A DNA stretch of 52,993 nt. It comes from Candidatus Yanofskybacteria bacterium RIFCSPLOWO2_01_FULL_39_28. GTDB taxonomy: Bacteria; Patescibacteriota; Minisyncoccia; 2-02-FULL-40-12; GWA2-44-9. Below the pieces are notes generated by a model. It made no database searches. It was given only the letters and a program-made list of their open reading frames with translations, and had not been told where the DNA came from. A program made the translations under genes and the position numbers. This document shows positions 14,359 to 47,736 of the stretch, in pieces. Within the stretch, counting starts at the first letter, position 1, and every line of letters begins with the position of its first letter. The DNA is taken from NCBI GenBank assembly GCA_001794635.1, contig MGKE01000008.1:1-52993 (forward strand), in the 5' to 3' direction.

Positions 14359-14501
14359 CGCTTTCGGGACTAGCCATCTTCAGCACGCCTCCGGCCAGCC
14401 AGCGCTGGCCTCAGCTATTATCGCCCTCGCTTTTCCGCCTAAGAAGGCGGAACCATGCAAAGCTTCGGGTCTCAAATGCTTTAGATGGCCAGTCCCTACG
14501 C
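14359..14501 (-). repeat. Dispersed structured element, copy C (divergent)
   Basis: Read on the minus strand, it shares with the copies at 17516 and 23420 the words GGCCATCT-AAGCA-TTGAGACC, AGCTGAGGC and GGAGGCGTGCTGAAGATGGC. The closing arms are GGGACT/AGTCCC, different in sequence from both other copies. An inner hairpin TTCCGCCTTCTTAGGCGGAA replaces the inner stem of the other copies. It lies immediately upstream of the Wzy-like gene. Confidence 0.75.
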
Positions 14502-14590
14502 TTATAACTTTTATAAAATTAAATAGTCGGCTACGCTCAATGCTTTAAATATATACTTTTTTTATTGAACCAGAAAGTGGATTTTTGAAA

Positions 14591-14640
14591 TTAAAAAGCC
14601 CCGCACCAGAGGTCGCTATGCGCGACTTGGTGCGGGGACT
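14591..14640 (-). terminator. Terminator of the GC-rich membrane protein gene
   Basis: CCCCGCACCA (14599-14608) pairs with TGGTGCGGGG (14628-14637), with an inner TCGC/GCGA stem and a T run on the minus strand. Confidence 0.8.
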
Positions 14641-14648
14641 TAACTGAC

Positions 14649-16490
14649 TTACTTCTTCGGGATCTGTTTCTCAAGCTCCCGAAGTTGTTCTGGTGTCAGA
14701 TTCTTTATCCGCTCTGTGATTGTCCGGGCATCCTCGGTTGCTTCTCGACTGCCACGAGCCTTCTCGTCAGCAGTACGGGCTTCGGTCTGGATCGGACTTT
14801 CAGACAGCTTGATTGCTAGATTGTCGAAGCTGTGCATCGGGATGACGTCCCGATCAGAGACGTATATCTCGATTCTCACCAGGTGGCCCTCTCTGGTGAC
14901 CGGCAGTTCCGGCGAATGACCGGCACCTGCGGTAAACAGATGGGGAATGTCCTTCAGATAGAGGTAGTACACCGTACCTTGCGTTGGAGTGACTTCACTC
15001 CCCACAAGAGACACAATGCCTTCAACGACCTGTAGGTTTCGGTTGCCTTCGACTGTTGCCCGACGTCCGGTTTCAGTCAGAAGTTTTTCGTAGTTCCTAA
15101 CTGTTTCTTGAGCGCTTCGTCCGCTTGCAACGGTCTGAATGTCGTTGATCGAAACCATGGCCACTCCTTGGAAAGCATGGCTTTCGTTCAGGAGCGGAAC
15201 CACGGCTGTCGGCAGGCCATTGACGTTGTACAACTGAACCGCTGCACCGTGCAGATGCTTGAACTGGATGTCCTGATTCTTATTGACTGCATCCAACACA
15301 GCTGACGTTGTACCGCCTCCCGGCATTTGGTATCTGATGGTCTTGCCTGTCCGAGAGTTGGTATAGACGAGAGCAACCAGTGAGTCGTCACTGGAATTTG
15401 TCGAGGTAATGTCAGTCACCCATTCCGGCTGATCGCCGTTGCCATAGATGAGCAAAGCGCCGTCTCTGTCAGACATGGTAAGGCCTTTCTTGCCCCACCA
15501 GCTGTTGAGCCATCCACTCGAGTACGAACCTTGCCAATTCAGGTAGTTGACGATGAAGTCGTCGGAGACGACCCGGTCAACCCAGCTGGGTACTTTGCTC
15601 AGTTCGTGGAATGTGTTGTTGCCCGAGAACGGATCAACAACCACTACTCCAAGAACTTTTGCACCCGACCAGCCGAGAGTCGGCTTGAAGGCAGTGATAA
15701 CCCACCACGGGTTTCCTTCGTCGTCGATCTCAAGCGATGTTTCAGTTAGGCCAGTGCCGAGATAACCGTTGTTTCGTAGATAACGCTCCAGATTGTCACC
15801 AAAGAAAGCGCCGGGCGTATAACGCATACGCTTTCCTTCGGGGAACTGGACAAGCTCGGCCTGTCGGTGAGGATCTTCTCCTGACACCTTGACGTAGCCG
15901 GGAGTGCCGTTGGTGTTCAACCAGACACTGAAACCGGCGAAGTCCAACGGTGCCACGAAAGTCAGCTCGCCTTTGATCATCTGCACGGTCATCGTCCCAA
16001 GTTCGAACTGGCTTCCAATGGCGCCGGCGGTACCAAGCACCTTCTGGGCTTGATACGAGGCGTTCTCGTTGCTTGCCATTCTCATGTGAGCCGGATCTTT
16101 CGGCTGAATGTCCTGAGTCCAAACCCGCTCTTCAATATCACCCAAGTGGTTGATGACTGAAGCATAGGTATTCGCTCGAAGCATTGCCGAATTGAAGAAG
16201 GCAACTCCGATGTAGATCACGACTGCACCGACAGGAAACACCCACAACAACGGGGTGCCGTCGTCGTCAGCAACAGCAATAATCGCCGCAACCACCCACC
16301 AGATCATGGTCATGAATCCCACGAGTCCGAAGAGCGGATAAACGGTCGTTGCCACAGCGACGTAGAAAATTGCCCAACCAAGAACGAAGGTCACGACGCC
16401 TTGCACGACAGCAGCAATCGGCCTTTTCACCAACATGAGCGGGAGAGCGCCAACAACCGCACTGATCAAAGCCGCAAATAGATAATACAT
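14649..16490 (-). CDS. GC-rich membrane-anchored protein with large external domain, unknown
   Basis: 613 residues. The N-terminus holds four or five hydrophobic helices (to about residue 100), followed by a long soluble region rich in Gly, Asn and Trp with beta-strand-like alternation, and a charged C-terminal helix (RTADEKARGSREATEDARTI). I recognise no family. ATG 16490 is chosen because AGGAG lies 8 nt upstream; the frame extends nine codons further, but those codons encode the ribosome site itself. Base composition is far higher in GC than its neighbours, pointing to transfer or strong codon selection. It has its own promoter and a strong terminator. Confidence 0.8.
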   Translation of the reverse strand: MYYLFAALISAVVGALPLMLVKRPIAAVVQGVVTFVLGWAIFYVAVATTVYPLFGLVGFMTMIWWVVAAIIAVADDDGTPLLWVFPVGAVVIYIGVAFFNSAMLRANTYASVINHLGDIEERVWTQDIQPKDPAHMRMASNENASYQAQKVLGTAGAIGSQFELGTMTVQMIKGELTFVAPLDFAGFSVWLNTNGTPGYVKVSGEDPHRQAELVQFPEGKRMRYTPGAFFGDNLERYLRNNGYLGTGLTETSLEIDDEGNPWWVITAFKPTLGWSGAKVLGVVVVDPFSGNNTFHELSKVPSWVDRVVSDDFIVNYLNWQGSYSSGWLNSWWGKKGLTMSDRDGALLIYGNGDQPEWVTDITSTNSSDDSLVALVYTNSRTGKTIRYQMPGGGTTSAVLDAVNKNQDIQFKHLHGAAVQLYNVNGLPTAVVPLLNESHAFQGVAMVSINDIQTVASGRSAQETVRNYEKLLTETGRRATVEGNRNLQVVEGIVSLVGSEVTPTQGTVYYLYLKDIPHLFTAGAGHSPELPVTREGHLVRIEIYVSDRDVIPMHSFDNLAIKLSESPIQTEARTADEKARGSREATEDARTITERIKNLTPEQLRELEKQIPKK

Positions 16491-16562
16491 CTCTTTTCTC
16501 CTTGCTATTTGAGGCATAGCTGCCGTCCGGGTTGTCGACGAACTGTCTCAACTGATGCCTAT

Positions 16563-16592
16563 ATTTTAACATAATCTGCGTATTTTTGTCAA
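16563..16592 (-). promoter_or_regulatory. Promoter of the GC-rich membrane protein gene
   Basis: On the minus strand, TTGACA (16592-16587), 18-bp spacer and TAAAAT (16568-16563). The leader of about 65 nt is GC-rich like the gene. Confidence 0.7.
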
Positions 16593-16661
16593 TGGTTTGA
16601 CTGAATTAAATCTTTATTTAATAATCTAGACCAGTATCTTGAAGTTTGAGAAGGATAAATT

Positions 16662-17060
16662 GTGAATGGAGCAATGATTTTGCAAGCGGCTATTGCTGGA
16701 CTATTTTTCAGTGTTTGGCCTCTTTTGATGAACAGAAGCGGGCTTCCAGGTATGCACGCAGCTTTTATTTTTGTATTGATCCAGCTTCTAATTATTACTC
16801 CACTAGTAATAAGCGGTCTTGATTCAAACATGTTTAACCGCTGGTCTGTTGCCGCAAGCATCTTTGCATCTATTGGATTATTAATATTTACCAACGGACT
16901 TGAAAAAATATCCCCTAAAGAAGTAAGTAATTTTTTTGTTATAGTACTGGTAGTCCAAGTCTGCGTCCCGGCAATATACCAGGTCGTCCTTACCGGCATA
17001 ACCCCGCAAAGAGCATTGGGTTTCGCCGCCGCCCTAATCGCCGCGATTTTGTTAAAGTAA
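16662..17060 (+). CDS. Small EamA/DMT-like membrane protein
   Basis: 132 residues with four to five hydrophobic helices. Features such as PLLMNRSGLPGMHAAFIF and NGLEKISPKEVSNFFVIVLVVQV resemble a half DMT (drug/metabolite) transporter, with the conserved start-of-helix Pro and Gly positions. The start is GTG 16662 with AAGGA upstream. A minus-strand open frame over the same region is its shadow. Substrate unknown; a half-size carrier would have to work as a dimer. Confidence 0.65.
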   Translation: MNGAMILQAAIAGLFFSVWPLLMNRSGLPGMHAAFIFVLIQLLIITPLVISGLDSNMFNRWSVAASIFASIGLLIFTNGLEKISPKEVSNFFVIVLVVQVCVPAIYQVVLTGITPQRALGFAAALIAAILLK

Positions 17061-17071
17061 ATACATAAATA

Positions 17072-17100
17072 TTGACTTTTAAATACCGTGGTGTTAATAT
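17072..17100 (+). promoter_or_regulatory. Promoter of the small lipoprotein gene
   Basis: TTGACT (17072-17077), 17-bp spacer, TAATAT (17095-17100). Confidence 0.7.
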
Positions 17101-17127
17101 AAACAAGTTCTGAGAGAGGACCTGACA

Positions 17128-17436
17128 TTGAAAATACTCTTGAAAATACTGCTTCGGTTCTTTTTCATTTTTGCCATGTTTTTATTTATTGGATGTGAGG
17201 AGTCTCAGGCAGCAAAAGAAATAAGACTAAGACAAACAGCCGAAAGAGTTACACAACAAAAGGTCAGAGTTGCCGAAGAAATAGTTTCAAATATAAACTA
17301 CTTCATGGACCCGAGAACAAAACTTTGTTTTGCTTATTACCGGGAAAATTATTCTAAGGGTGGACCAGCTCTTGCCACCGTCCCCTGTGAAGCGATCCAG
17401 CCTAACTTGCTTGGCACAGCCCCTATTTCTGAGTAA
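17128..17436 (+). CDS. Small lipoprotein
   Basis: 102 residues starting from TTG with AGAGGA 8 nt upstream. A basic, hydrophobic signal (KILLKILLRFFFIFAMFLF) ends in IGC, a lipobox-like site that would be lipidated and anchored in the membrane. The mature part begins EESQAAKEIRLRQ and forms an amphipathic helix, then DPRTKLCFAYYREN and VPCEAIQP with two Cys that could form a disulfide. Family not recognised. It has a consensus promoter and a strong terminator. Confidence 0.72.
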   Translation: MKILLKILLRFFFIFAMFLFIGCEESQAAKEIRLRQTAERVTQQKVRVAEEIVSNINYFMDPRTKLCFAYYRENYSKGGPALATVPCEAIQPNLLGTAPISE

Positions 17437-17446
17437 GTGTATCTTG

Positions 17447-17481
17447 CCCGTCAGTAAAATCTGACGGGTTTTTATTTTATA
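17447..17481 (+). terminator. Terminator of the lipoprotein gene
   Basis: CCCGTCAG/CTGACGGG stem, AT-rich loop, then TTTTTATTTT. Confidence 0.85.
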
Positions 17482-17515
17482 AAAACCAACTGATGGTTAC
17501 GGTCGAGAAATCGAG

Positions 17516-17691
17516 CCCAGCCCTTGGCCATCTGAAGCAATTGAGACCCCGAGGTCGCTGGATGATATAATATTGGCCGTTTTAGGCCAAATCAGCCAGC
17601 GACCAGAGGGGCGAACTTAGCTGAGGCGACGAGGCAGCTCCGGAGGAGTGCCGAGGAGCCGGAGGCGTGCTGAAGATGGCTTAGGGCTGGG
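17516..17691 (+). repeat. Dispersed structured element, copy A
   Basis: A 176-bp element. Its terminal arms CCCAGCCC and GGGCTGGG pair, next to GGCCATCT / AGATGGC. Inside, GGTCGCTGG pairs with CCAGCGACC around a TGGCC/GGCCA hairpin. The core is nearly identical to 23420-23609 apart from a few small differences, while the outermost arms differ. It lies between the lipoprotein terminator and the convergent permease gene. It contains no credible coding frame. Confidence 0.88.
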
Positions 17692-17728
17692 CGAGATGGA
17701 TGAAGAATTAGTAAGGTGAGAGCAATTT

Positions 17729-22610: not shown

Positions 22611-22837
22611 TAGCTCGCCCCCACCTCATCTTCATCAAAGGACTACGCCTCATGGAGTCCTTACAGTCGCAGAGGTTATATTTTCTCTGACCAATGGTGG
22701 TTGCCCCCGGTCAGGCCATGCGGATCGGCCAAAATCCCGACCGAGCCTGACCACCCCCATTGGACTCCCAGGAAAATATAACCTCTGCTCCTTAATGACT
22801 ATCTATTCGTTGTATTGATTCAGATGAGATGGGGCTA
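22611..22837. repeat. 227-bp nested palindromic element between genes
   Basis: The gap before the 22954 gene is one folded structure. A 17-bp perfect inverted repeat (22669-22685 with 22772-22788), CCAATGG/CCATTGG (22691, 22757) and GGTCAGGC/GCCTGACC (22709, 22745) nest inside an imperfect outer stem around CTCATCT/AGATGAG. A side hairpin AAGGACT/AGTCCTT lies at 22638-22662. It is GC-richer than its surroundings. No coding potential is apparent. Confidence 0.85.
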
Positions 22838-22908
22838 CGCAATATTGACGGCTAAAAGGTTTCAAAAATGGTACGGAAAGGATTCGCTGTGATTTTTTTA
22901 TACAAAAC

Positions 22909-23419: not shown

Positions 23420-23609
23420 GCGAGTGAAGCTCTTGGCCATCTGAAGCAATTGAGACCCCGAGGTCGCTGGATGATATAATATATTGGCCGTTTTAGGCCA
23501 AATCAGCCAGCGACCAGAGGGGCGAACTTAGCTGAGGCGACGAGGCAGCTCCGGAGGAGTGCCGAGGGAGCCGGAAGCGTGCTGAAGATGGCTTAGGGCT
23601 TCGCTCGCT
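23420..23609 (+). repeat. Dispersed structured element, copy B
   Basis: The core is nearly identical to 17516-17691, but the closing arms are GCGAGTGAAGC and its complement-like GCTTCGCTCGC. These differ from copy A yet still pair. The inner GGTCGCTGG/CCAGCGACC stem is retained. It sits directly against the stop codon of the beta-CASP nuclease gene. Confidence 0.88.
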
Positions 23610-47492: not shown

Positions 47493-47736
47493 AACAAAGC
47501 TAATCTTTAATATTTTGCAGACCATTTGGTTTCAAGGCTAACATAATACTCAAATTAGTTAATAATTTGCTTTACTCAATAAATTTTAGTCGGAAAAATT
47601 AAACAATGGTTATGATATATCATAACCATTGTTTAATGCACACGGATACTAAAATTTATTGAGTAAATTGAGACTAATTTGAGTATTTGTCCGAAGAAAT
47701 CCAACCGGTCGAAAAATATGAAAGATTAGCTTTGTT
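47493..47736. repeat. 244-bp nested inverted repeat
   Basis: Four nested perfect arms: 47493-47508 with 47721-47736 (16 bp), 47546-47559 with 47673-47686 (14 bp), 47572-47590 with 47648-47666 (19 bp) and a central 40-bp perfect palindrome at 47598-47637. The spacers between the arms have diverged. The right outer arm is the last codons and stop of the ATPase gene, so the left arm is an inverted copy of a coding end. Confidence 0.92.

Follow-up and report, generated by a model that had tools for sequence, protein, structure and literature searches.

What kind of sequence keeps its ends complementary when those ends change from copy to copy is the question raised by an element that occurs three times in the window, the 52,993-nt stretch analysed here, which is contig C8 of the 815 kb draft genome of Candidatus Yanofskybacteria bacterium RIFCSPLOWO2_01_FULL_39_28. 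The genome has a fourth copy on a different contig (C14:94583-94747). The copies and arm sequences quoted in a preliminary description of this DNA were all found where it had placed them (Table 1), and its remark that no reading frame lies inside agrees with our observation of no ORF within the window copies.

The element and its family

Folding of the three window copies gave z values of -9.2, -6.2 and -8.7 against dinucleotide shuffles, each copy being far better folded than its shuffles. The cores of copies 2 and 3 are 97% identical while their outer arms differ, and the hairpin GGTCGCTGG/CCAGCGACC is present in two of the window copies. Copy 1 adjoins the start codon of a Wzy_C-domain gene and is an exception to the stop-codon rule described below. 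Copies 1 and 2 (window 14359-17691) also bracket, in inverted orientation, a block of genes including ORFs of 622 and 179 aa without a Pfam match, and this block was not found at the same locus in the related genomes compared.

Table 1. Positions of the element copies and their parts in the window.
Feature	Position	Strand	Remarks
Copy 1	14359..14501	-	Short P2, no TATAAT; arms GGGACT/AGTCCC
Copy 1, outer arms GGGACT/AGTCCC	14366-14371/14491-14496	-	
Copy 2 with outer stem	17510..17697	+	ATC-GA-GCCC ... GGGC-GA-GAT
Copy 2, outermost arms CCCAGCCC/GGGCTGGG	17516-17523/17684-17691	+	
Copy 2, closing stem P1, 5' arm	17515..17533	+	
Copy 2, closing stem P1, 3' arm	17674..17692	+	
Copy 2, hairpin P2	17547..17611	+	TATAAT bulge at 17566-17571
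Copy 2, hairpin P3	17620..17666	+	Closed by GCTGAGG...CCGGAGGC
Copy 3	23420..23608	+	Stem stops just before the stop codon of a beta-CASP gene (minus strand, 23614)
Copy 3, outermost arms GCGAGTGAAGC/GCTTCGCTCGC	23420-23430/23598-23608		One G.T wobble

Every copy has the same fold, a three-way junction composed of a closing stem (P1), a GA/GA internal loop, two hairpins (P2 and P3) and conserved joining sequences, in a unit of 100-200 nt per copy. Read 5' to 3', the folded strand consists of the P1 5' arm, GA, AGC or GAC, a conserved CAnTnGAGAC, P2 and GCGAAnnTAGCTGAG, followed by P3, CCGGAGGCGTG, GCT or GTC, GA and the P1 3' arm. The tandem GA/GA loop bounds P1 on its inner side, with GA on both sides in 37 of 49 copies, and often another bounds it on the outer side, where the 3' motif of this second GA-rich loop was observed near the element in 31 copies versus 6 in a control window. 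In the longer forms, an unpaired part of P2 contains TATAAT (31 of 48 copies, missing in 17; none on the complement). A few copies are truncated, e.g. G003:C4:2430.

The family was collected with covariance models. Because hairpin tips vary in length, a first set of 21 copies was trimmed to a gap-free core of 111 columns with the structure written by hand, and an unpaired A in the P1 5' arm of some copies was taken out to hold the register. The first model placed the element at 47 sites in one Ca. Yanofskybacteria family, where 12 of 28 genomes carried it, and at one site in another family of the order; a second model built on 49 copies (R2) raised the carriers to 13 of the 28 genomes. The family thus comprises about 50 copies in these 13 genomes and one further genome of the same order, counts that rest on rough model E-values and on genomes that are nearly all drafts, one per species. 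Samples of 285 genomes from the class and 286 from the phylum yielded no additional carrier, with strict filters and few candidates scored per genome, so that weak relatives could be missed. Viral contigs and phage and plasmid collections gave no match to the element, no Rfam family reached its gathering score at any element (a lax search returned none that was convincing), and literature searches found no description of it. Since the fold is constant, the closing stem varies by copy and most copies immediately follow a stop codon, we regard this as a real and undescribed family of structured DNA elements.

Other fold-back elements were observed in the window and the surrounding loci. A nested element of a different family (TTTTGCAGACC...GGTCGAAAAA, TTTGTCCGANGAAAT) occupies window 47493-47736, its stem covering the stop codon of a 612 aa gene at 47726, and a relative of it with other arms was found at L156 10228-10412. 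Another palindromic repeat (window 22620-22840) has a 100% copy at G000:C7:44149-44365 and copies of 79-80% on C15 and C6. The hairpin module AGGCGAAGG...GGAATCGCC (L128 2001-2212, L159 3843-4103) occurs both in the P3 tip of the present family and inside a different fold-back family; fold-back families nest in one another. Together, the window and loci L113-L171 (400 kb) contain 85 long inverted repeats (arm score of at least 14) compared with 5 after block shuffling, many of them ending at stop codons.

Pairing, strand and position

In the trimmed set of 21 copies, 91.4% of cells were paired and 24 of 31 pairs had changed on both sides. The 49-copy alignment (47 distinct copies), biased towards the structure because it was fitted to it, gave 93.0% of cells paired, and both sides had changed in 28 of 31 pairs, including all 14 pairs of P1. 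The covariation score was 0.728, compared with 0.231 in shuffles and at most 0.197 with slid partners. Two checks are independent of the alignment. Free folding gave back the shape in nearly all copies, and a search for non-complementary arms among more copies (n = 44), an outcome that would have counted against the preliminary description, instead showed arms pairing with their own partner at a mean of -19.2 kcal/mol versus -7.5 kcal/mol with the partners of other copies. The exchange of AGC/GCT for GAC/GTC beside the tandem GA is itself compensatory (pairs 26-236 and 27-235). The constraint on P2, on P3 and most of all on P1 is for pairing and not for sequence.

The same strand folded better in 47 of 48 copies, by a mean of -13 kcal/mol, and the trimmed set contained 35 G.T wobbles compared with 13 A.C mismatches. 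By simple longest-ORF calls, on which all position statistics rest, 41 of 48 copies had an opposite-strand gene beyond the 3' end (binomial p 6e-7, a value that treats copies as independent, which those within a genome are not), the folding strand in these being antisense to the following gene; the seven exceptions include window copy 1. The opposite-strand stop codon was commonly located 4-14 nt past the modelled end. Outer stems often ended within a few bases of this codon, and some covered the stop and one or more codons. The usual position of a copy is therefore immediately behind a stop codon, with its orientation fixed.

Arrival and descent at a gene/tRNA-Val junction

A junction between a conserved gene end and a following tRNA-Val(CAC) was found across the family. 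Without the element the gap measured -1 to 63 nt (12 genomes), while in three genomes, where the element begins immediately behind the stop codon, it measured 210-229 nt; this contrast shows that the element arrived at the junction. Other genomes carry different fold-back inserts there, and at two loci (L199 in G006 and L204 in G008) Y1 transposase genes of RAYT-like type were observed inserted at the junction with short palindromes beside them. The 12 short junctions, empty of the element, contained no matching inverted repeat, so the arms were not simply taken over ready-made from the site. The earlier suggestion of a mobile element that captures flanking inverted ends is thus supported in its mobility and not in the capture. 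Its proposal to look for empty sites in relatives was followed at this junction; the window loci are syntenic, but their intergenic sequence is too diverged to define sites, and the related genomes are too distant for exact empty-site reconstruction.

The copies at this junction in two sister species of the same genus (G003 and G001) had an identity of 0.55 in the core, as low as between the cores of unrelated copies, and of 0.73-0.74 in the arms. Two copies within G001, by comparison, had a core identity of 0.96 and arm identities of 0.63-0.73. Core similarity therefore goes with the genome and arm similarity with the locus. At the shared site the two species differ by the compensatory changes AGC/GCT to AGT/ACT and AGCC/GGCT to AAC/GTT; since arms tied to a locus have diverged yet stay complementary, pairing has been kept by compensatory change. 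The same split between core and arm explains window copies 2 and 3, for which hairpin capture is not needed. Comparison of genomes thus shows copies turning up at otherwise nearly empty junctions and persisting by descent.

These results sharpen the view that arm differences amount to direct covariation within one genome. The arms do covary, but cleaner evidence exists, since within a genome the cores, unlike the arms, are homogenised; the argument for selection on the fold is carried by the orthologous site. Selection on a folded form, one of the possibilities raised at the outset, is strongly supported by the covariation, the one-strand folding and the compensatory changes at that site.

Readings of the element

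The element probably represents a non-autonomous mobile element recognised by its fold. To the fuller statement, that these are dispersed, non-coding, non-autonomous and putatively mobile elements recognised by shape and not by sequence, we give a probability of about 0.5. An enzyme acting in trans would recognise the folded strand, either as single-stranded DNA of the gene's template strand or as antisense RNA, and would place it behind stop codons, where it would be harmless. Exchange of cores between copies, by gene conversion or re-insertion, would then homogenise the cores while the arms drift under compensatory mutation, giving a closing stem that changes by copy but always pairs. A more specific form of this reading is tentative, namely that the folded single strand is a unit set behind stop codons by a host or phage enzyme, with an exchangeable core on a locus-specific, co-evolving stem, and is one of several such families nesting in each other's loops in these reduced genomes.

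No partner enzyme was found among Y1 and reverse transcriptase genes. Y1 transposases/RAYTs were not detected in G000 and G003, both rich in copies, no element was observed in 18 loci around Y1 genes, and the presence of reverse transcriptase did not track the element; both candidates were rejected for lack of association. No target-site duplication was established.

Comparison with known systems gave partial likenesses. RAYT-associated REP/BIME sequences are likewise dispersed, intergenic, palindromic and non-coding, and some REPs are found about 15 nt or less from a stop codon; those no more than 15 nt away are reported to cause ribosome stalling (PMC12306157). The present element is larger (100-200 nt) and forms a three-way junction, the GTAG/GGAG foot tetranucleotide of REP/RAYT systems was found in only 4 of 48 copies, and no element lay beside the RAYT genes examined, which carry short palindromes of their own. 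In the broad sense of a REP-like extragenic palindrome, the element does belong, being a dispersed intergenic imperfect palindrome near gene ends. Integron attC sites keep their structure while their sequence varies, lie behind a stop codon and fold on the strand antisense to the gene, all of which the element shares. Its conserved part, however, is the junction and not the foot, the R-box pair (RYYYAAC / GTTRRRY) was found at the foot in 0 of 48 copies, and no integron integrase exceeded the TIGR02249 cut-off in the 28 family genomes (incomplete drafts), so an attC/integron identity was rejected. ERIC and other MITE-like intergenic repeats are dispersed, non-autonomous imperfect palindromes of 100-200 bp; the element differs in a closing stem free to vary, in a fixed orientation to the neighbouring gene and in its restriction, as sampled, to one Yanofskybacteria family and one genome of the order. 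With the structured RNA families of Rfam it has covarying stems and conserved loop motifs in common, without a gathering-score match.

The latter likeness bears on a possible but clearly less probable alternative, a structured non-coding RNA gene present in many copies and transcribed antisense to the gene end, its stems evolving by ordinary RNA compensation with genomic spread as a secondary matter. RNA families typically have conserved unpaired motifs and tandem GA loops and show covariation, and both the fixed folding strand and TATAAT in P2 on that strand alone would fit such a gene. However, TATAAT is internal to the element and absent from 17 copies, no promoter signal was evident upstream (7.8 matches versus 7.6 in shuffles), a terminator-like T-run followed the element in 3 copies compared with 7 in the control region, and Rfam gave no match. 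A reading of the element as a terminator was rejected on the same scarcity of T-runs.

Templated DNA repair (quasi-palindrome correction by template switching) might keep arms complementary without selection on the fold, stem growth stopping at coding sequence. We consider this unlikely. Outer stems do stop at stop codons or reach a few bases into them, as if coding sequence limited the palindrome, and the excess of long stems is general in these genomes (the 85 inverted repeats versus 5 above), but such repair would erase the GA/GA mismatches, which 37 of 49 copies conserve, and would leave folding on one strand unexplained.

Slightly less likely still is insertion into the loops of pre-existing hairpins such as gene-end terminators, with the arms as captured target sequence, which would suit the near-identical cores and different arms of copies 2 and 3, the hairpin modules nested in the tips of these elements and the terminator-like arms of one G020 copy, but is opposed by the 12 short junctions lacking an inverted repeat, by the low number of copies (9 of 48) with a run of five T on the sense side of the gene and by arms that evolve by compensation at a shared site.

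In this family complementary pairing is kept from copy to copy and from species to species even as the sequence is replaced, and its orthologous copies and natural empty junctions provide what is needed to separate insertion, gene conversion and compensatory change. The family also points to folded intergenic elements as a little-described layer behind the stop codons of Patescibacteria, a group whose small genomes might have been expected to shed such sequence.
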